A stretch of DNA of 64,000 nucleotides from Tahibacter amnicola (GTDB taxonomy: Bacteria; Pseudomonadota; Gammaproteobacteria; Xanthomonadales; Rhodanobacteraceae), in NCBI RefSeq assembly GCF_025398735.1, contig NZ_CP104694.1:2319001-2383000 (forward strand), read 5' to 3'. Of the stretch, positions 44,253 through 54,781 are shown one piece after another. Under the pieces are notes generated by a model, which saw only the letters and a program-made list of their open reading frames with translations, was not told the origin of the DNA and made no database searches. Numbering within the stretch: position 1 is the first letter of the stretch; every line of letters begins with the position of its first letter. The translations under genes and the position numbers were made by a program.

Positions 44253-44485
44253 CGGCGTCGACTCTGAATAAGATGAATAGTCTAGCAGTGCGGGCGGACA
44301 TTCCCAGGTACCCGCCGCCCGCAGGGGAGGCGGTCCGGTCCCGTACGCCTTATCGCAGATTCAGGCTCGGTCAGTTAAATTCTCATTCAAGTCCATGGTG
44401 GAACGCTCCGATCCGGCGCGGAATCAATTCCGTCCACGCGGCCCATGGGTGTGTCGTACCGTTCCTCTGCCTTCCGGAGATCACG

Positions 44486-45022
44486 ATGTCGCGTACGTTG
44501 CTGCTTATCCTCGCCGCCGGGCTCGTCATGAGCCAGACAGTCAGCGCCCAGGAAGACCGGGGTCGCTCCGACGAGGCAGTGCACTACGCCTGGGCCGATG
44601 TGGTCCGCGTCGATCCGATCTATACCTATGAACGTGTCAGCCGCCCCGAGCGCGAGTGCTATGACGAGCGCGTGACCCATCGCGAAGACGGCCGGGGCAA
44701 CAACACCGGCGCTACGGTGCTCGGCGCCATCATCGGTGGCGCGCTGGGCAATCAGGTCGGCAAGGGCGACGGGCGCAAGGCGGCCACCATTGCCGGTGCG
44801 GTCGCCGGCGGCGCCATCGGCAACAGCGCGGCCCGGCGCGATGACCGCACCTACACCAGTACCGAACGCCATTGCCGTGAAGTGGATGGCGGCTACGAAG
44901 AGCGTCGCGTGAACGGCTACGACGTCGAGTACCGTTATCGGGGCGAAACCTACATGTCGCGCCTCGACTACGATCCGGGCGAGCGCATCCGCGTACGGGT
45001 CAGCGTCACGCCGGCCGAGTAA
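44486..45022 (+). CDS. Exported glycine-zipper 2TM-domain protein
   Basis: 178 residues; CGGAGA lies 5 bases before the ATG, and the frame upstream of it is not signal-like. Signal peptide to about residue 22 (…MSQTVSAQ). A glycine-zipper segment (about 78-112, TVLGAIIGGALGNQVGKGDGRK and AATIAGAVAGGAIGNSAARR) is followed by a region resembling SlyB/Rick_17kDa relatives (RHCREVDGGYEERRVNGYDVEYRYRGETY). Such proteins sit in or at the outer membrane; the function is poorly known. No lipobox Cys is present, unlike true 17-kDa antigens. Confidence 0.85.
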   Translation: MSRTLLLILAAGLVMSQTVSAQEDRGRSDEAVHYAWADVVRVDPIYTYERVSRPERECYDERVTHREDGRGNNTGATVLGAIIGGALGNQVGKGDGRKAATIAGAVAGGAIGNSAARRDDRTYTSTERHCREVDGGYEERRVNGYDVEYRYRGETYMSRLDYDPGERIRVRVSVTPAE

Positions 45023-45100
45023 CCGACGGGATGCGGCCGGCAGCCTTGTGTTGGCCGACCCGCCGGGCGTGCGTCGGACGCTGCCGCATATTCCCATGTA

Positions 45101-45130
45101 TTGTTGCGCCGCGGAAAACTTCCGTGTAAT
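45101..45130 (+). promoter_or_regulatory. Promoter of the arginine leader and operon
   Basis: TTGTTG (45101-45106), an 18-base spacer and TGTAAT (45125-45130, 5 of 6). It predicts a start near 45137, about 24 bases before the leader ATG. The spacer contains the dyad CGGAA-AAC-TTCCG (45112-45124), a possible operator. Confidence 0.5.
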
Positions 45131-45160
45131 GATCCCGGCGTCCACCCCACCCGAGGCAGC

Positions 45161-45265
45161 ATGAGCGCGAACTACGCCGACGCCGATATCCTGACCAGCG
45201 CCCGCATGGCTGCTGGCATGACGTCGCGTGCGCGTCGACCGTTCCCGCCATTGCCAGCCGGGTAG
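45161..45265 (+). CDS. Putative arginine leader peptide (34 aa)
   Basis: ATG with GAGG 4 bases upstream, 34 codons, then TAG at 45263-45265. Arginine codons are 15 (CGC), 23 (CGT), 25 (CGT) and 26 (CGA); the last three lie within four positions at 45227-45238, in the stretch SRARRP. The reading frame is too short and too unlike any protein family to be judged as a functional protein. Its placement between a promoter and a terminator ahead of the arg operon, with overlapping alternative RNA stems, marks it as a regulatory leader. I know of no annotated homologue. Confidence 0.65.
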   Translation: MSANYADADILTSARMAAGMTSRARRPFPPLPAG

Positions 45266-45323
45266 GTCGTCGCACTGCATCATCAGTTTCCGACAAAAAC
45301 CCGGCCTTCGCGCCGGGTTTTTT
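45212..45323 (+). promoter_or_regulatory. Putative ribosome-mediated arginine attenuator
   Basis: Four RNA segments. Segment 1, GCUGGCA (45212-45218), pairs with UGCCAGC (45252-45258) of segment 2, looping out the Arg codons. Segment 2's GCCGGGU (45257-45263) pairs with segment 3, ACCCGGC (45299-45305), supported by GUCG (45266-45269) with CGAC (45291-45294). Segment 3 alternatively pairs with segment 4, GCCGGGU (45312-45318), as the terminator. A ribosome stalled on scarce Arg-tRNA would cover segment 1 and free segment 2 for 2:3 antitermination. A ribosome reaching the stop at 45263 would cover segment 2, so 3:4 would terminate. Confidence 0.68.
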
Positions 45324-45327
45324 GTTT
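45295..45327 (+). terminator. Rho-independent terminator (attenuator stem) before argF'
   Basis: AAAAACCCGGC-CTTCGC-GCCGGGTTTTTT then GTTT: an 11-bp stem with a full T run, ending 52 bases before the argF' start and 30 bases after the leader stop codon. Any transcript from the promoter upstream must pass it to express the operon. Confidence 0.88.
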
Positions 45328-45378
45328 GTGGTCCCAAGCCCGGCGAGCGAAGTCCCCCACCTTCTGCCGAGGCTTCCG

Positions 45379-46395
45379 ATGTCACTTCGCCACTTTCTCA
45401 CCACGCAGGATTGGTCACGCGCCGAGCTGGACGCGTTGCTGGACCAGGCCGTCGCCTTCAAGCATTCCCGCTTCGGCCAGCAGCTGGCGGGCAAGTCCAT
45501 TGCCCTGCTGTTCTTCAACCCCTCCATGCGCACGCGCACCAGTTTCGAACTGGGCGCCCATCAGTTGGGCGGGCATGCGGTCGTGCTGGCGCCCGGCAAG
45601 GATGCCTGGCCGATCGAGTTCGACCTGGGCACCGTCATGGACGGCGATACCGAGGAGCACGTCTCCGAAGTAGCCCGCGTTCTGTCGCGCTACGTCGACC
45701 TGATCGGCGTGCGGGCGTTTCCGAAGTTCCAGGACTGGTCAGTGGACCGCGAAGACCGCGTCATCAAGGCATTCGCGAAGTACGCCACGGTGCCGGTGAT
45801 CAACCTGGAAACCATCACGCATCCGTGCCAGGAGCTCGCGCACGTGATGGCGTTGCGTGAGAAATTCGGCAATCTGGACAAAAAGAAATACGTCCTGACC
45901 TGGACGTACCACCCCAAACCCCTCAACACGGCAGTGGCAAACTCGGCGCTCCTGATCGCCACGCGTTTCGGCATGGACGTGACGCTGCTGTGCCCGACGC
46001 CCGAGTACGTACTGGACGAGCGTTACATGGAACTGGCCCGCCAGAACGTTGCCGAGAGCGGCGGTTCGCTGCGGGTGAGCCACGATATCGAGGACAGCTA
46101 CCGCGGCGCCGATATCGTCTACGCCAAGAGCTGGGGCGCGTTGCCGTACTTCGGCCGCTGGCAGGACGAGGCCCCGATCCGCCAGTCGCACAAACATTTT
46201 ATTGTGGACGAGGCAAAAATGGCGCTGACCAACAACGGCGTCTTCAGCCATTGCCTGCCGCTGCGGCGCAATATCAAAGCGACCGACGCCGTAATGGACT
46301 CGCCGGCCTGCATCGCGATCGACGAGGCGGAAAACCGCCTGCATGTGCAGAAAGCCGTCATGGCAGCCTTGGCCCGGCACACGCCTTCGCGCTGA
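45379..46395 (+). CDS. argF': N-acetylornithine carbamoyltransferase (AOTCase)
   Basis: 338 residues from an ATG with GAGG 6 bases upstream; close to Xanthomonas AOTCase (339). It makes acetylcitrulline from acetylornithine and carbamoyl phosphate, replacing ornithine carbamoyltransferase. The carbamoyl phosphate loop is [11 protein letters not shown], with [16 protein letters not shown] and [12 protein letters not shown] further on. The AOTCase-type stretch [31 protein letters not shown] replaces the SMG loop of ordinary enzymes. First structural gene after the attenuator, heading argG, argE' and the rest. Confidence 0.94.
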
Positions 46396-46453
46396 ACGCA
46401 GCCCCTTTATTCAACCCATCCGGCTGCCGCGAAGCGGCCGACAGGAACACGTC

Positions 46454-47659
46454 ATGAGTCAGAAAGATATCGTCTTGGCATTTTCAGGCGGACTGGATAC
46501 CAGTTTCTGCATTCCCTATCTGCGCGAACGCGGCTACACGGTGCACACCGTATTTGCTGATACGGGGGGCGTGGACGCCGAGGAGCGGGCCTATATCGAG
46601 GCGCGCGCCACCGAGCTTGGCGCCGCCAGTCACGTCACGGTCGACGGTGGTCCGGCAATCTGGTCCGGATTCGTCAAACCCTTCGTCTGGGCCGGCGAGG
46701 GATACCAGGGCCAGTATCCGCTGCTGGTGTCCGATCGTTATCTCATTGTCGAAGCCGCCCTCAAACGCTGCGACGAGCTCGGCACGACCCTCATCGCGCA
46801 CGGCTGCACCGGCATGGGCAACGACCAGGTGCGTTTTGACCTTGCGGTGAAAGCCCTCGGCGACTACACCATCGTTGCGCCGATCCGCGAGATTCAGCGC
46901 GAACACAAGGAAGTGCGGGCGTACGAGCAGAAATATCTGGAAGACCGCGGATTTTCGGTGCGCGCCAAGCAGAAGAGCTACACGATCAACGAGAACCTCC
47001 TCGGGCTGACCATGTCCGGCGGCGAGATCGACCGCTGGGAAATTCCCGGGCCGGGCGCGCGCGGCTGGTGCGCACCGCGCTCCGAATGGCCGGCACAGGC
47101 ATTGCACGTGGAAATCGTATTCGAGCAGGGCGAGGCGGTGGCGCTCAACGGAGAGCGCATGGCGGGCCATGCCATCCTCGCCCGGCTCAATACACTGTTC
47201 GCGTCCTACGGTGTCGGGCGTGGGCTTTACACGGGCGACACGACGATCGGCCTGAAAGGCCGCATCATTTACGAGGCGCCCGGCCTGGTTTCCCTGCTCG
47301 CCGCGCATCGCGCGCTGGAAGAGGCCGTGCTGTCGCGGCCGCAGAACCGCTTCAAGCCCGAGATCGCCCGGCGCTGGGTCGAGCTGGTGTATGAGGGCTT
47401 CTACCACGATCCCCTCAAGGCTGACCTGGAAGCCTTCCTGGCCTCCAGCCAGCGCTGCGTCAACGGCACGGTCGTGCTGGAATCCGTGGGCGGAACTGTC
47501 AATGCCGTCGCGGTGCGTTCGCCGCACATACTCAATGCCAAGGGTGCGACGTATGCGCAGTCGGCGGATTGGGGCGTGGCCGAAGCCGAGGGATTCATCC
47601 GTCTCTACGGCATGAGCTCGACGCTGTGGGCTGAAGTCAATCGCGGCCAGGGTGACTGA
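46454..47659 (+). CDS. argG: Argininosuccinate synthase
   Basis: 401 residues; AGGA lies 7 bases before the ATG. Joins citrulline and aspartate with ATP to give argininosuccinate. The N-type ATP pyrophosphatase loop AFSGGLDTS (9-17) is intact, followed by FADTGG and the citrulline/aspartate-binding regions ([14 protein letters not shown]). The gene lies between argF' and argE', 58 and 36 bases away. In the acetylcitrulline pathway its substrate citrulline is released by the product of the next gene. Confidence 0.95.
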
Positions 47660-47695
47660 GGTGCGGCCGATGCGTACACACGAGGGCAAGTGCCC

Positions 47696-48787
47696 ATGAT
47701 CGCCACGACACTGGACCACCTGCGTGCCCTGGTCGCCTGCGACACGCGCAATCCGCCGCGGGATATCGGCACCGGCGGCATCTTCGACCATCTCAAGGCG
47801 GCCTTGCCCGGCTTCAGCCACACCGTGACCGATCATGGTGCCGGCGCAGTCAGCCTGTACTCGGTGCGTGGAAAACCACGCTTTCTGTTCAATGTTCACC
47901 TGGATACCGTGCCCGCGTCGCCGACCTGGTCGCGCAATCCACACGAGCTGCTGGTGACGGATGATCGCGCAATCGGCCTGGGCGCCTGCGACATCAAGGG
48001 CGCCGCCGCCGCCCTGCTCACGGCCGCGGCGCACACTTCGGGCGGTTGCGCCTTCCTGTTCACGACTGACGAGGAAGCCAACGACGCACGCTGCATCGCG
48101 GCCTTCCTCCGGGATCCGCCGCCGTTTGACGCCGTCATCGTGGCCGAACCCACGCGTGCCGAAGCGGTTCTTGCCCATCGCGGCATCAGCGCCGTGCGGA
48201 TGCGACTCGCCGGACGCGCAGGGCACGCGTCGGGCGACATCGCGCTGTCGGACAGCGCGGTACACCAGGCGATGCGCTGGGGCGGCCGGGCACTCGATTA
48301 CGTCCAGGCGCAATCGCATCACCGCTTCGGCGGGCTGACCGGGCTGCGTTTCAATATCGGTCGCGTCGACGGTGGCATCAAGCCGAATGTCATCGCACCG
48401 TCGTGCGAAGTCCGGTTCGGATTCCGTCCCCTGCCGAGCATGTCGACGGACGAACTGCTGGGGACATTCCGCGCCTTCGCGGAACCTGCGCCCGCCGAGT
48501 TCGAGGAAACGTTTCGTGGCCCGTCGCTGCCCGCGGGTGACATCGCCGCCGCGGAGTCGCGCCGGCTGGCTGCGCGCGACCTTGCGGACGAACTGGGCCT
48601 GCCGATCGGAAATGCCGTGGATTTCTGGACTGAATCATCGCTCTTCTCGGCCGCCGGCTACACCAGTTTCGTCTACGGTCCTGGCGATATCGCGCAGGCA
48701 CACACGGCCGACGAATGGGTCGCCCTGGAACAATTGCAGAAAGTAACCGAAAGCTATGTACGGATCATCGACCATGCATGCGCATAA
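47696..48787 (+). CDS. argE': Acetylcitrulline deacetylase (M20 family, ArgE-like)
   Basis: 363 residues; GAGGG gives the ATG at 47696 a 9-base spacing and disfavours the GTG two codons earlier. M20 metallopeptidase fold with dinuclear zinc ligands in [19 protein letters not shown] and TTDEEAND, and a dimerisation domain with [19 protein letters not shown]. In Xanthomonas this enzyme removes acetyl from acetylcitrulline to give citrulline. Position in the AOTCase operon supports that substrate over acetylornithine. Its end overlaps the next gene by 14 bases. Confidence 0.9.
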
Positions 48788-50090
48788 AGATGTACGCCAG
48801 ACGATCGTGCGCCTGTTGTCGAGCATGGCCAGCGCGAAAGAAATACACCAATACCTCAAGCGTTTTTCGCAGCTGGACGCCAAGCGCTTCGCCGTGGTCA
48901 AGGTCGGCGGCGCCGTTCTGCGCGATGACCTGGAGGCGCTGACCTCTTCGCTGGCATTCCTGCAGCAGGTGGGTCTGACACCGATCGTGGTGCACGGTGC
49001 CGGTCCCCAGCTGGACGAACAGCTGTCCGCAGCTGGCATCCAGAAGCAGACCATCGACGGCCTGCGCGTGACTTCACCCGAGGCACTGGCGATCGTGCGC
49101 CGCGTTATGCTGACCGAGAACCTCAAGCTCGTCGAATCGCTGCAGGCGACGGACGCGCGTGCGACCTCAATCGTCGGCGGCGTCTTCGACGCGGAGTTCA
49201 TGGACCGCGAACGCTACGGCCTTGTCGGCGAGGTGACCGGCGTAAATCTGGCGCCGATCGAAGCCAGCCTCAACGCCGGCTCCATTCCCGTGATCGCGAG
49301 CCTGGGCGAAACACTGGGCGGTCAGATTCTCAACATCAATGCGGATTTCGCGGCCAATGAGCTGGTGCAGGTGCTGCAGCCCTACAAGATCATCTTCCTG
49401 ACCAGCACGGGTGGCCTGCTCGACGGTGAAGAGGCGGTGATCGATTCGATCAACCTGTCGACCGAATACGATCATCTGATGGCGCAGCCGTGGCTGCATT
49501 CGGGCATGCGGCTGAAGATCGAGCAGATCAAATTGCTGCTGGACCGCCTGCCGCTGACGTCCTCGATCTCGATCACGCGGCCGGCCGAGCTGGCCAAGGA
49601 ACTCTTCACCCACAAGGGCTCGGGCACGCTGGTGCGGCGCGGCGAGAAAGTCCTGAAGTTCCATTCCTGGCAGGGCATCGACTGCGATCGCCTGCGCTCG
49701 CTGATCGAGTCGAGTTTCGGGCGGCGCCTGGTCGCGGACTACTTCGAGCGCACAGTTCCCCAGTGCGTCTACATCAGCGAGAACTATCGCGCCGCGGTGA
49801 TCCTGACGGAGGTCCAGGGGCATACCTATCTCGACAAATTCGCGGTGCTCGACGAGGCGCAGGGCGAGGGACTGGGGCGTGCCGTGTGGCAGGTGATGCG
49901 CGAGGAGGTGCCGCAGCTGTTCTGGCGCTCACGACACGGCAACCTGGTCAATCCGTTCTACTACGCCGAATCCGATGGCTGCTTCAAGCAGGAAAAGTGG
50001 AAAGTGTTCTGGTATGGGCTGGAAGATTTTTCCGACATCGCCTTCTGCGTGGACCATTGCCGCGACCGGCCGCCAACCCTGATCGGTTGA
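48774..50090 (+). CDS. argB: Bifunctional N-acetylglutamate synthase/kinase
   Basis: 438 residues from the ATG inside the end of argE'. The N-terminal acetylglutamate kinase domain (about 1-285) has [26 protein letters not shown] and [11 protein letters not shown]. The C-terminal GNAT domain (about 290-438) has [38 protein letters not shown] and [21 protein letters not shown]. This architecture is the Xanthomonas/Maricaulis-type NAGS/K, covering steps one and two of arginine synthesis, with arginine feedback known for the family. It resembles vertebrate NAGS rather than E. coli ArgA. The symbol argAB is also in use. Confidence 0.92.
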
Positions 50091-50121
50091 CGGCCCTGAA
50101 CCCCTGGAGATTCCGTCGTCC

Positions 50122-51081
50122 ATGAAGAAATCCGTTGGCATCATCGGCGCGCGCGGTCACACCGGCGCCGAACTGATTTCCCTGATCGCAGGACATCCGG
50201 GCCTGGAGCTGGCCTTTGTCTCGTCACGTGAGCTGGATGGCCAGCGCGTCAGCGATCACAATGCCCACTACCGTGGCGATCTGCGCTACACCAATCTAGA
50301 CCCCGCTCAGACTGCCGCCCATGACGCGGACGCTGTCGTCCTGGCCCTGCCCAACGGCAAGGCTGCTCCCTACGTCGAGGCGATGGGCGAATCCTCGACC
50401 ATCCTGCTCGACCTGTCGGCCGACTACCGCTTCGATCGCAGCTGGTACTACGGGCTTCCCGAGCTGTACCGTTCCGCCTGGCAGGACCAGCGGCGCATCA
50501 GCAATCCCGGCTGTTATGCCACGGCCATGCAGCTGGCGATCGCGCCCATCAAGGATCTCCTGGCCGGCCCGCCGACCTGCTTTGGTGTTTCCGGCTATTC
50601 GGGCGCCGGAACGACGCCGTCCGACAAGAACGATCCGCAGAAATTGCGCGACAACCTGATGCCGTATTCGCTGGTCGGCCACGTGCATGAGCGGGAGGTC
50701 AGCGAACATCTGGGCCTGCCCGTGGAATTCATGCCGCACGTAGCGCCGCACTTTCGCGGCATCACCATGACCGTCAACCTGTGGCTGCAGACACCGCAGA
50801 CCTTGCCGGCAGTCACTGGCCGGTATCGCGAGCGCTATTCGGCCGAGCCGCTCGTCCGCGTCGTGGACGAGGCGCCCTGGGTCAGCCGGATCGCCGGCGA
50901 CCACGGCTGCGAGATCGGCGGATTCGCGCTGGCGCCGGGCGGAAAGCGTCTGGTGGTCGTCGCCACGATCGACAACCTGCTCAAGGGGGCCGCAACGCAG
51001 GCCCTGCAGAATCTCAACCGTGCCCTTGGCTTTGACGAGCTGACGGCAATTCCCGTGACCGCATCGAAGGCGGAGCCCTGA
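50122..51081 (+). CDS. argC: N-acetyl-gamma-glutamyl-phosphate reductase
   Basis: 319 residues. NADPH-dependent third step of arginine synthesis. The N-terminal Rossmann motif is [21 protein letters not shown] (5-25). The active-site Cys lies in [16 protein letters not shown], and the catalytic His region is [15 protein letters not shown]. One base separates it from argH. Complete and typical. Confidence 0.95.
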
Positions 51082-51082
51082 C

Positions 51083-52396
51083 ATGTCCGAACTGCTGTGG
51101 CAGAAATCCGGTGTCGAAGTCGACAAGCGCATCATGCAATTCCTCGCCGGTGACGACGTGCTGCTCGACCGCGAATTTTTCCTGCACGACATCCAGGCGA
51201 GTCAGGCCCATGTGGAGGGGCTCGCCCGCATCGGGTTGATCACGGCGGAGGAATCGGCGCAGCTGGTACGTGAACTGGCGGAACTGGGCGAGGATTTTCA
51301 TTCCGGCCGCTTTATCCTGGACGACAGCTACGAAGACGGTCACTCGGCCATCGAGGCACGTCTTATTGCGCGACTGGGGGATATCGGACGCAAGGTGCAC
51401 ACCGGGCGCAGCCGCAATGACCAGATCCTGGTCGCGTCGCGTCTGTGGCTGAAGGAGAAGCTGGCCGAGCTGGTGACGCTATGCCGTGGCGTCGCGCGCG
51501 TTTGCCTGGATCGGGCCGCGCGCGACGACCTGCCGATGCCCGGCTACACGCACCTGCAGCGGGCGGTGGTGTCGTCCACGGGAATGTGGTTCGCCGGCTT
51601 TGCCGAGGCGTTCATCGATAACGCCCGGCGCGCGGCCGACACCTTGGCCCTGGTCGACTGCAATCCGCTCGGTACTGCGGCAGGCTATGGCGTCAACCTG
51701 CCGCTGGACCGGGATTTCACGACGCAGCGCCTGGCCTTCGGCCGCCTCCAGCTGTCGCCGATCTACGCGCAGTTGTCGCGCGGAAAGTTCGAGCTGGCGG
51801 CGCTCGACGCCCTGGCGGGCGCCTTGCTCGATCTGCGTCGTCTGGCGTGGGACCTTAGCCTGTTCACCACCGCCGAGTACCGGTTCGTGCAGCTGCCTGC
51901 CGCGTACACCACGGGCTCGTCGATCATGCCAAACAAGCGCAATCCGGACGTCGTCGAGCTGATGCGGGCGAGCTATTCCGCCGTGGCGGCCGCACGCTGC
52001 GAAGTGGAACAGTTGCTTTCGCTGCCGTCGGGTTACCAGCGCGATCTGCAGTTTTCCAAGGGCTCCATCGTGCATGGATTCACGCGTGGGCTTGGTGCTC
52101 TGGCGCTTTTGCCGAATCTGTTGCGTGAGCTGGGCTGGGATGCCGCCGCCATGCGCGCGGCGATCGAGAGCAGCATGTATGCCACCGACGTGGCGATTGA
52201 GCAGGCCGCCGCCGGCGTGCCGTTCCGCGAAGCCTACCGGCGTGCGGCGGATACGGCGAACGAAGCGGGGCAGGGGCGTACACCGGAAGCCAGCCTTGCG
52301 GCCCGCGTGTCCCCCGGCGGCGCTGCTGACCTGCGTCTGGCGGAGCTTGAACGGCGCTGGCAGGCCGGGGAGATCAGCGATGCGTCCCGCGCATAG
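51083..52396 (+). CDS. argH: Argininosuccinate lyase
   Basis: 437 residues. Fumarase/aspartase superfamily enzyme that splits argininosuccinate to arginine and fumarate. The signature [18 protein letters not shown] with the catalytic serine loop is present, as are [11 protein letters not shown] and [11 protein letters not shown]. The last 17 bases overlap the proB start in another frame, so arginine and proline genes are translationally coupled. Confidence 0.96.
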
Positions 52397-53525
52397 TCCG
52401 CACGGACTTCCTCCTTGGCGCCGCGCCGTGCTGAAGGTCGGCAGCAGCCTGCTGGCGGCGGACGGCGCCGGCCTGAGCACGCGCTACGCTCTTGGTATCG
52501 CCGAGTTCATCGCTGCGGCGCACCGCGCCGGTCGCGAAATCGTGCTGGTGTCCTCCGGTGCCGTGGCGGCGGGGCGTGCCCTGGTCCGTTCGCAGCCGGA
52601 GACAGCCCACGGTCTTGCCGCGCGGCAGGCGCTGGCGGCGATCGGTCAGACCAGCGTGGTGGCGCTGTGGCAGCGCTTCTTCGATCGACCGGTTGCCCAG
52701 GTGCTGCTGACCCATGACGACCTGCGTAACCGCCGCCGCTACTTGAACGCCCGCGCGACGCTGCGCGAACTGCTCGGCCTGGGTGCGCTGCCTGTCGTCA
52801 ATGAAAATGACACGGTCGCTGTCGATGAGCTCAAGCTGGGTGACAACGACAATCTCGCCGCGATCGTCGCTGCACTGGTCGATGCGGACGTGTTGATGAT
52901 TGCCACGGATATCGACGGCCTGTTCACGGCCAATCCACGCACGCACAGCGATGCCGTTCCTGTCGAGGACGTGCCGGTTATCACGCCTGCCGTCATCGCG
53001 ATGGCCGGTGGCGCCGGCAGCACCGTCGGAACCGGTGGGATGGCCACCAAGGTCGAAGCGGCGGGCAAGGCTGCAGCCGCCGGCATTCCGACGCTGCTCT
53101 TCAATGGCACCCGGGCGGATGTTCTGCGCGATCTCTCTGTCGACCGCCTCTGCGGCACCCGCTTTCGCGCCGAAGGCGGGCGACTGCACGCGCGCAAGTA
53201 CTGGCTGCGCCACACACCGGGCAACGGCGGGCGCATTTGCGTCGACGCCGGCGCGGTGCGCGCCCTGCATGGCGCGGGCGCGTCGCTGTTGCCCAGCGGC
53301 GTGGTGGCCGTCGATGGCGATTTCGCGCGCGGTGACGTGGCGGACATCGTCGATGCAGAGGGTCGCACCATCGCACGTGGCCTGTGCCAGTACGGCGCCG
53401 TGGAGATCCGCCGCGTGGCCGGCCGCAAGTCGCGCGAGATTGAAGCCCTGCTGGGCTATAGCTACGGCGAAACCATTGTGCATCGCGACGATCTGGTCGT
53501 CCTGGAAGGAGCAGTGTCCGCATGA
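52380..53525 (+). CDS. proB: Glutamate 5-kinase
   Basis: 381 residues from an ATG with GGGGAG 7 bases upstream; the frame upstream overlaps argH and is not family sequence. First step of proline synthesis. The amino-acid-kinase domain (about 14-265) shows [46 protein letters not shown] and [14 protein letters not shown]-terminal PUA domain (about 285-375, [22 protein letters not shown]) is present. proA follows with an ATGA overlap. Confidence 0.95.
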
Positions 53526-54781
53526 CTGACTCGATCCGTACCTTGGCCTTGGCCTGCCGCGACGCCGCCGCGACCGTGGCAGCGCTGGATGCGGCGCGCA
53601 AAGCGGCGGTGCTCGTGGCGATGGCCGAGGCGATCGAACACGATGCCGATGCCATCCTGTCTGCCAACGCGCTCGACATGGCTGCAGCGCGGCAGAAGGC
53701 GCTCTCTTCGGCGATGCTGGATCGGCTCGCTCTGGATCCGGCGCGTGTTCGTGCCATGGCTGACGCACTGCGCCATGTGGCCGGATTGCCGGATCCGGTG
53801 GGGAGCGTGACGCGTCGGGAAACCCGGCCCAATGGCCTCACGATCGAACGCGTCCGCGTGCCACTCGGTGTGGTGGCAATGATCTATGAGGCCAGGCCGA
53901 ATGTCACCGCTGACGCGGCGGGTCTCTGCCTGAAGGCCGGCAATGGCGTGATCCTTCGCGGCGGTTCGGAAGCCCTGCATTCCAACCGCGCCATCGCGGC
54001 CGCGCTGGGGCGCGCGCTGGAGATTAGCGGTATTTCACCGCACGCGATCACCCTGGTGGAGGATACGCGCCGCGAGGTCATGGTCGAACTCCTGCAGTTG
54101 ACGGACATTGTGGATCTTGCCATTCCGCGCGGTGGCGAAGGGCTGATCCGGTTTGTCGCCGAGCACGCGCGCGTGCCGGTGATCAAGCACTACAAGGGTG
54201 TCTGCCATCTTTTCGTCGACAAGGACGCGGACCTGGCGTTGGCGCTGGCACTCCTGGTGGATGGGAAGACCACGCGCCCGGCGGTCTGCAACGCGCTGGA
54301 GACACTGCTGGTCCATCGCGCGTGTGCGGGGCAGTTCCTTCCAGCCGCGGTGCAAGCTCTCAGGGCCCGCGGGGTCGAGTTGCGCCTGTGCGAACGCGGC
54401 ATCGCCATTGCCGGTGATCATACGCTGGCGACCGATGACGACTACGCGGCCGAATTTCTCGACCTGGTGCTGGCGGTGAAGGTGGTCGACGGTATCGACC
54501 AGGCTATCCACCACATCCGGCGATTCGGCTCGGATCACACCGAAGTCATCGCTACGCGCGATGCGCAACGCGCGGATCATTTCGTACGCAGCCTGCGCTC
54601 GGCGGTGGTGATGGTGAATGCGTCGTCGCGCTTTTCCGATGGCGGCGAGCTCGGCCTGGGCGCCGAGATTGGTATCTCCACCACCCGATTGCACGCCTAT
54701 GGTCCGATGGGAGCGGAATCGCTCACCATCGAGCGCTTTGTCGTGCGCGGCAACGGCCAGGTTCGCCACGCTCCCACCTGA
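53522..54781 (+). CDS. proA: Gamma-glutamyl phosphate reductase
   Basis: 419 residues. NADPH-dependent aldehyde-dehydrogenase-fold enzyme, second step of proline synthesis. Seen: [44 protein letters not shown] and the catalytic Cys region [17 protein letters not shown]. The C-terminal [30 protein letters not shown] is also present. End of the arginine/proline operon; no clear terminator is visible in the 150 bases after it. Confidence 0.96.

Follow-up and report, generated by a model that had tools for sequence, protein, structure and literature searches.

A probable arginine-sensing leader-peptide attenuator ahead of the argF' operon of Tahibacter amnicola and its relatives in the Lysobacterales

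Introduction

In Gammaproteobacteria the synthesis of arginine (Arg) is the textbook regulon of the repressor ArgR. In Tahibacter amnicola, whose genus is placed in the Rhodanobacteraceae, order Lysobacterales (NCBI), and whose genome measures 6.46 Mb, we analysed a stretch of 64,000 nucleotides (nt), here called the window, in which an arginine operon begins with argF', the gene for N-acetylornithine carbamoyltransferase (AOTCase), and is preceded by a short leader frame, two alternative RNA pairings and an intrinsic terminator. This leader is very probably a ribosome-mediated transcription attenuator that senses arginine, and the reading is strongly supported because of the conservation of the leader, its covariation, its register and the lack of ArgR. 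The features expected of an attenuator are present together: a short frame in which codons for the end product are clustered, an intrinsic terminator before the first gene, a covarying antiterminator that excludes it, and a fixed register. The frame, the selection on it, the Arg cluster, the register, the exclusive pairings and the lack of ArgR were all computed.

The class to which the element belongs, leader-peptide attenuation, is ordinary; what is unusual is the amino acid, the breadth of occurrence, the lack of ArgR, the choice of codons and the conservation of the peptide. Vitreschak (2004) reportedly dealt with proteobacterial attenuators. In the open-access full text of PubMed Central, the scope of our search, we found no earlier arginine-biosynthesis attenuator in this order. 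A first-pass annotation of the window, made from its sequence alone, knew of no described arginine attenuator of this form and did not exclude an earlier report; leaders with Arg codons are known, as orf34 ahead of speF shows in the extracts available (PMC6386406).

Results

The leader frame in close relatives

Upstream DNA was fetched through AOTCase matches, blind to the leader, at 110 loci (L001-L110; 30 + 80), which include some genomes twice and come mostly from Rhodanobacteraceae and Xanthomonadaceae by title, with some unplaced metagenome bins. The peptide pattern M-T-S-R-A-[R/H]-R-P occurred once in 109 of these loci, 124-263 nt before the AOTCase match and with 97 distinct cores, and the exception, L012, carries the variant MTSRARRN. 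A start codon lies 18-21 codons before M-T-S-R in the 109 loci (ATG in 101, GTG in 8), and the distance from the M of this motif to the stop is 15 codons in 104 of the 109 frames. A search for the pattern as DNA, wherever it stood relative to AOTCase, covered 398 genomes of the order and matched in 247, all of them in the families designated f1 to f4, which include those of Tahibacter and Xanthomonas, and none in f5 to f12; the reversed pattern matched in 5. In a class-wide sample the pattern was found in 5 of 369 genomes, all five of this order (reversed control, 3). Genomes G006, G078 and G294 each had two matches, and the second matches of G006 and G078, with unlike codons, are probably due to chance. 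Members of f4 retain MTSRARR, not always with the P; one f4 locus, L253, with 7 bases of upstream sequence available, was uninformative.

The frame, the register and the terminator occur together in 141 of 150 distinct leaders. The first-pass annotation, which had proposed the attenuator, looked to an alignment with relatives for its check: frame, Arg cluster and terminator are kept together there, and loss of the frame with the terminator retained was not found among them. Two loci are recorded for themselves. L066, on a contig titled Candidatus Eremiobacteraeota (CAJCJD010000114.1), has a Dyella-like leader and an AOTCase 81% identical, and is probably a mis-binned metagenome contig; at L166 (G043 C7:33600-34600) two tandem copies of the leader region are separated by an N, either an assembly artefact or a recent duplication.

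Selection on the peptide

Codon differences were counted over 68 unique AOTCase-anchored rows. In the core without its Arg codons (A, A/S, G, M, T, S, A, P) the proportion of synonymous differences (pS) was 0.409 and that of nonsynonymous differences (pN) 0.0096, a ratio of 0.023, while pN/pS was 1.05 over the five codons that follow the core and 0.77 over codons 2-11. Resampling of 130 unique leaders, pattern-anchored ones included, put the ratio of the core at 0.018-0.086 and that of the tail at 0.89-1.19. Third positions vary in the Thr codon, the two Arg-CGY codons and the Ala codon between them, so the conservation is not of the RNA as such, and the pattern of selection indicates that the frame is probably translated. 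Conservation extends over about 14 positions, of which R-R-P are the last.

Three codons were invariant over the 68 rows, TCG (Ser), CGA (last Arg) and CCG (Pro), and over 99 unique rows they were kept in 98, 99 and 96. In the window these are TCG 45224-45226, CGA 45236-45238 and CCG 45239-45241, with neighbours that vary at third positions. Pairing of the post-stop GTCG with the CGAC of the CGA-CCG codons could not be shown to be the reason for the invariant TCG and CGA; nor could a small hairpin, TCGCG-YGCN-CG-Y-CGA, over the Arg codons, which is broken by TCT in 1 of 99 rows and by CAC in 1 of 99.

Exclusive pairings and register

The anatomy of the window leader is given in Table 1. The 34-codon frame, the Arg codons 23, 25 and 26, the pairing segments and the T6 run stand where the first-pass annotation had put them, by direct reading and by a scripted coordinate check; an Arg codon at position 15 was missing from its list. 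The identity of segments 2 and 4, and hence the mutual exclusion of the 2:3 and 3:4 folds, was likewise borne out. Relative to dinucleotide shuffles the 2:3 stretch 45257-45305 had a z of -3.87 and the terminator -3.76. Terminator-like matches in 44500-46500 numbered 4 with 1.5 expected, and the leader terminator is the longest. When 45251-45311 is folded, as if the Arg codons were covered and segment 4 absent, a compound antiterminator results, with 7 base pairs (bp) of 2:3, 4 bp of GTCG:CGAC and an apical hairpin.

Among 150 distinct leader cores the terminator-arm motif was present in 147, and segments 2, 3 and 4 could be placed in 141 (unplaced in L004, L041, L060, L112, L113, L118, L162, L163 and L175). 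At the variable base of the three segments these 141 leaders have C/G/C in 108 cases, T/A/T in 31 and the wobble combination T/G/C in 2, with no case of C/A. A third form of the segments occurs in f9 (GCCAGGT, ACCTGG[C/T], GCCAGGT). With segment 2 defined as whichever GCYGG lies closest to the stop, 132 of the 141 leaders have 21 nt between CGA and segment 2, and 2:3 pairing is complete (7 of 7 pairs) in 126 of 133 unique leaders. In an alignment of 54 distinct rows from f1 to f11, 2:3 was paired in 96.3% of cells and 3:4 in 100%, against at most 54.8% and 56.6% in slid controls; the 3:4 figure is biased upward, since the f5-f11 rows were chosen partly by 3:4 pairing, while segment 2 was chosen blind to segment 3. 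For 2:3, the percentage paired, the double-change cells and the score exceed shuffles; 2 pairs showed double changes and 5 further pair types occurred, numbers no higher than in shuffles of these 54 rows.

More distant families

AOTCase was found in 192 of 220 genomes, and the upstream stretches of 74 loci, mostly outside f1 and f2, were taken from among the places listed. By rule, 56 of the 74 have both terminator and antiterminator, as do 45 of the 60 loci from f5 to f11. An Arg cluster (at least 3 Arg in 9 codons, at the right distance) is present in 42 of these 45 passing loci, compared with 6.3 expected from dinucleotide shuffles, and at least 4 Arg in 9 codons in 31, compared with 1.6. 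Clustered Arg codons number three in f1-f4 and up to six in the other families. The peptides themselves differ (for example ...LRRRRR..., ...NPRRRR..., ...RRARRTRRP... and ...VVRRARRR...), so conservation is confined to the arginine cluster and to its approximate spacing from segment 2. An Arg cluster within otherwise different peptides is the strongest single argument that it is the arginine codons that would be read.

Lack of ArgR

The Pfam domain Arg_repressor matched in 8 of the 220 genomes of the order, all in f12, leaving 212 without a match; the window genome gave 0 matches. About nine genomes of such a sample belong to f12, and the 211 genomes of other families had no match. A smaller sample gave 2 of 61 genomes, also in f12. 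The same search was positive in 9 of 14 control genomes, E. coli and B. subtilis included. At 2 of 2 f12 loci there was no such leader upstream of the carbamoyltransferase. AOTCase operons with neither leader nor ArgR match also occur, in f6 and in part of f10 (L164, L170, L222, L231, L234 and others).

Codon choice

Codons were counted in 45 leaders of f5-f11 picked by eye and in the AOTCase stretches of the same loci; these are counts only, and the relatives are not independent. CGA makes up 79 of 207 Arg codons in the leader clusters and 26 of 227 in the AOTCase stretches, and CGG, AGA and AGG, expected to be read by other Arg transfer RNAs (tRNAs), make up 9 of 207 and 75 of 227. At least one CGA is present in 42 of the 45 leaders, the three without it being of f5. 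In the AOTCase genes of L031-L110, CGA is 22 of 1515 Arg codons. The Arg anticodons found in the window genome are acg, ccg, tct and cct, with no tcg among 49 tRNA matches, a list that is incomplete. Inosine reads CGA, and if the list holds, CGT, CGC and CGA would be read by one tRNA. The theory of selective charging, in the part of the source available, fits such sensing of one isoacceptor (PMC1183508).

The Xoo5 transcript

Rfam family RF02242 (Xoo5) aligns with 45168-45281 of the window at 30.5 bits, below the gathering cut-off of 50. It scored over the cut-off in 8 of 14 leader loci scanned (53.5 to 144.2 bits), in 17 of 151 genomes of the order and in 0 of 14 control genomes. The 124-position model was taken as a proxy for the 124-nt Xoo5 RNA, in place of the X. 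oryzae sequence itself. In 7 of the 8 loci it begins 2 nt ahead of the leader ATG, in L176 it begins 1 nt inside it, and in all 8 it ends 20 nt after the leader stop. According to the extracts of the original report, the 5' end of Xoo5 was determined by rapid amplification of cDNA ends (RACE) and the 3' end from clones, giving 124 nt, northern bands were seen at about 130 and 100 nt with the longer only in early growth, the RNA was counted as likely Hfq-independent, and the downstream gene, PXO_00353, was named N-acetylornithine carbamoyltransferase (PMC3039613). By its homologous place, its start 2 nt before the ATG and AOTCase as the next gene it is the same RNA as the leader; it was filed as a non-coding small RNA (sRNA) of unknown function, leader peptide and attenuation go unmentioned in those extracts, and neither "leader" nor "arginine" is a word of the main text (PMC3039613). 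A short RNA accumulating at the start of the leader is as attenuation predicts. The first-pass annotation had named a start downstream of the terminator as evidence that would count against it; none was found, the sole mapped 5' end that we found in print being just upstream of the leader.

Promoter, operon and neighbouring frame

The letters TTGTTG-N18-TGTAAT that the first-pass annotation had called a promoter are present, but relatives favour TTGCGC-N18-AATGAT. In a by-eye alignment AATGAT 45128-45133 corresponds to CATGAT or CATCAT in most relatives of the same genus, which suggests that the -10 box is AATGAT rather than TGTAAT. The pattern scan, by its own rule, called no promoter in 44500-46500. 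A -10-like box stands a few bases before the ATG in many leaders of other families, judged by eye, as for leader peptides on almost leaderless transcripts.

The operon order of the first-pass annotation agrees with the Pfam domains except for 'argB': frame 48756-50087 has AA_kinase and NAT domains, and its product looks like a fused acetylglutamate synthase/kinase, with the first two steps of the pathway in one protein. Upstream of the leader, on the same strand, lies a frame (44273-45022) with glycine-rich repeats and 0 Pfam matches at E <= 1e-10. Its product ends like MSRLxYDPGERxRVRVSVxPAD, and the same stretch is found upstream of the leader in several relatives, which makes it a conserved neighbour.

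Table 1. Positions of the leader, its pairing segments and the operon in the window
Feature	Position	Strand	Basis
Putative leader promoter: TTGTTG 45101-45106, N18, TGTAAT 45125-45130	45101..45133	+	Inferred, read from sequence
Alternative promoter boxes, favoured by relatives	TTGCGC 45104-45109, N18, AATGAT 45128-45133	+	By-eye comparison
Possible ribosome-binding site GAGG	45153..45156	+	Sequence
Leader peptide frame, 34 codons, MSANYADADILTSARMAAGMTSRARRPFPPLPAG*; ATG 45161, TAG 45263-45265	45161..45265	+	Sequence, comparison
Core codons A-R-M-A-A-G-M-T-S-R-A-R-R-P; first R and M most variable	45200..45241	+	Amino-acid conservation in relatives
Segment 1, GCTGGCA, complementary to TGCCAGC 45252-45258	45212..45218	+	Sequence
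Regulatory codons 23-26, CGT GCG CGT CGA	45227..45238	+	All three Arg codons expectedly read by tRNA-Arg(ACG)
CGA codon	45236..45238	+	Identical in 68/68 unique AOTCase-anchored codon rows
Segment 2, GCCGGGT, overlapping first base of leader stop codon	45257..45263	+	Sequence
Second helix GTCG 45266-45269:CGAC 45291-45294 and apical hairpin within antiterminator	45266..45294	+	Fold of 45251-45311
Intrinsic terminator 3:4 with T6 (45318-45323)	45295..45323	+	Pattern scan, fold
Segment 3, ACCCGGC, partner of segment 2 or segment 4	45299..45305	+	Sequence, fold
Segment 4, GCCGGGT	45312..45318	+	Sequence
argF' (AOTCase), first gene of operon	45379..46395	+	Pfam domains, open reading frame
argG, argE'-like M20 peptidase, fused acetylglutamate synthase/kinase, argC, argH, proB, proA	46454..54781	+	Pfam domains

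Discussion

Arginine would be sensed here through charged tRNA-Arg(ACG), presumably modified to inosine. With arginine plentiful, codons 23-26 would be read and the ribosome at the stop codon would cover segment 2, so that 3:4 forms and transcription ends at about 45323. With charged tRNA-Arg short, the ribosome would wait at CGT-GCG-CGT-CGA with its front edge short of segment 2; the front edge of a ribosome lies about 12 nt downstream of the first base of the A-site codon. Segment 2 would then be free to pair with segment 3 before segment 4 is made, and RNA polymerase would continue into argF'. The stalling of the ribosome, its dependence on arginine and any role of the nascent chain are what we infer from the computed features.

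In f1-f4 the nascent A-[A/S]-G-M-T-S-R-A-R-R-(P) may fill the upper exit tunnel and would probably deepen the pause. The trp/his-type logic that the first-pass annotation applied to arginine is strongly supported as far as the attenuator goes, but the counting of codons alone fails to explain the conserved non-Arg residues, a hint that the nascent chain aids pausing. Such a contribution in f1-f4 is rather likely, because the core has a suitable length, and ends at the right place (the Arg codons), for its residues to lie in the upper exit tunnel of a paused ribosome. Tentatively, and with odds that we put somewhat below even, the f1-f4 leader may be an ancestral run-of-arginine attenuator turned into a nascent-peptide device, with the rare, inosine-read CGA as trigger and arginine read through both tRNA charging and the chain, standing in for ArgR in most of the order.

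Several observations weigh against the attenuator as we read it. With segment 4 present and a ribosome at CGA, the minimum free energy (MFE) fold is the terminator in 4 of 7 species (the window, L186, L109 and L096) and the antiterminator in 3 (L143, L011 and L002), so the 2:3 state would need to be kinetic. The 3' end of Xoo5, by the Rfam model, falls 8-10 nt short of the terminator arm, for which processing or cloning is a possible cause, and its northern sizes are below the roughly 160 nt expected of the terminated RNA. Among f5-f11, 15 of 60 loci fail the rule for terminator and antiterminator, 2:3 is mismatched in 7 of 34 leaders, and 14 more have no segment-2-like match. In the GC-rich f2-f4 loci the Arg cluster by itself exceeds shuffles by little (8 of 11, with 4.2 expected). 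No such leader was found at the f6 locus (1 of 1) and at 12 of 19 f10 loci, and no ArgR match either. The tRNA list lacks tRNA-Ile(gat) and tRNA-Ala(tgc) and is therefore incomplete, so that a tcg tRNA-Arg may have been missed; this gap among the 49 matches may reflect rRNA operons masked in the genome sequence used.

The 1:2 helix drawn in the first-pass annotation also belongs here: it is present in the window but not conserved. Of 133 unique leaders, 3 (one being that of the window) form all 7 pairs, 15 form 6, 74 form 5 and 41 form 4 or fewer. The mean is 4.76 pairs; swapping partners between leaders gives 4.70, and 7.3% of such swaps reach the observed mean. The regional 1:2 duplex, independent of register, is no better than shuffled (mean z +0.45). 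Partial pairing of about five bases is common, but as the mean after swapping is nearly the same there is no sign of co-change, and a conserved 1:2 pause or protector helix of the four-segment trp/his form was rejected. The positions of a ribosome at the stop and at CGA would suffice, so that no conserved 1:2 helix is needed.

The alternative that survives best, though we think it unlikely, is an arrest peptide: A-[A/S]-G-M-T-S-R-A-R-R-P would itself stall the ribosome, arginine or a pathway intermediate would relieve or set the stall, much as ornithine reportedly does for SpeFL, and tRNA charging would be secondary. Such a peptide would explain the contrast in pN/pS between the non-Arg core codons (0.023) and the codons after the core (1.05) or codons 2-11 (0.77), the run of about 14 conserved positions ending in R-R-P, which is about the length of the upper tunnel, and the mere three clustered Arg codons in f1-f4 as against up to six elsewhere. 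Outside f1-f4, however, the peptides differ and the Arg cluster stays, as codon sensing would have it, and the final P is dispensable (MTSRARRN in L012, MTSRARRL in L158, MTSRARRC in L157, MTSRARRR in L250, MTSRARRT in L159).

The leader of Salmonella speF bears on this choice. In the extracts available, orf34 (SpeFL), which precedes speF, uses two Arg codons to respond to arginine and controls an ornithine decarboxylase by way of Rho-dependent termination, RNase G and ribosome access (PMC6386406). It resembles the present leader in its 34-residue peptide, its Arg-Arg core conserved in Gammaproteobacteria and its response through Arg codons, and differs in its target and in the Rho and RNase G route; its Pfam accession is given as PF10940 (PMC6386406). 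No sequence relation was seen: four of our leader peptides gave no match to that family and 0 Pfam families at E <= 1. SpeFL was later reported to be an ornithine-dependent arrest peptide. By analogy it may serve as a warning, being an arginine-codon sensor by its first reading that was later revised to an arrest peptide.

A trans role of the leader RNA (Xoo5 as a small RNA) or of the released peptide, with the attenuator anatomy secondary, is very improbable. In its favour, a discrete Xoo5 RNA has been observed, the core of the peptide shows conservation, and peTrpL has been reported, in the part of the source available, as a trans-acting leader peptide (PMC7298713); yet frame, register and terminator are linked in 141 of 150 distinct leaders, the peptide is almost free to vary at both ends, and in the extracts of the Xoo5 report seven sRNA deletions, which may or may not include Xoo5, gave no obvious phenotype (PMC3039613). 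Frame 44273-45022, on the same strand, could be invoked for a plain terminator of the upstream gene, unregulated and overlapped by a short frame by chance, but this reading is already contradicted by the promoter-like sequence that lies between and is shared with relatives, by the 5' end of Xoo5, by selection at the amino-acid level and by three-way covariation, and is hardly credible. Equally remote is a riboswitch that binds arginine or some related compound, for which a structured leader and terminator before a biosynthetic operon would speak, since the window has 0 Rfam matches at the gathering cut-off and no riboswitch family among 12 sub-threshold matches, and the conservation is protein-coding in pattern with third positions mostly free.

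The probable arginine attenuator shares with the trp, his, leu and thr attenuators of proteobacteria a leader frame with cognate codons, an antiterminator exclusive with an intrinsic terminator and a stop codon on segment 2. It differs in sensing arginine and in lacking a conserved 1:2 helix, in f1-f4 also in a peptide core that hardly varies and has a cluster of just three Arg codons, and in Xanthomonadaceae in a transcript that starts 2 nt before the leader ATG by the Rfam model. Like the E. coli leu leader, whose rare codon is CUA, it uses a codon rare in the genome, here CGA; the amino acid is another, and CGA expectedly shares one tRNA with the common CGC and CGT. The leu operon is the rare-codon paradigm in the extracts of the selective-charging work (PMC1183508).

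On this reading most of the sampled AOTCase operons outside f6, f10 and f12 would be headed by a leader-peptide attenuator, and 212 of 220 genomes have no ArgR match. Much of the order, plant pathogens and soil bacteria among them, would thus sense arginine without the usual repressor protein, and the orphan Rfam sRNA Xoo5 would be given a likely function. The use of CGA and inosine wobble would be a natural case of their part in sensing the supply of an amino acid. The leaders of f1-f4 suggest a codon-counting attenuator evolving toward one with a conserved peptide, and the step from tRNA sensing to arrest peptide may here be directly testable.
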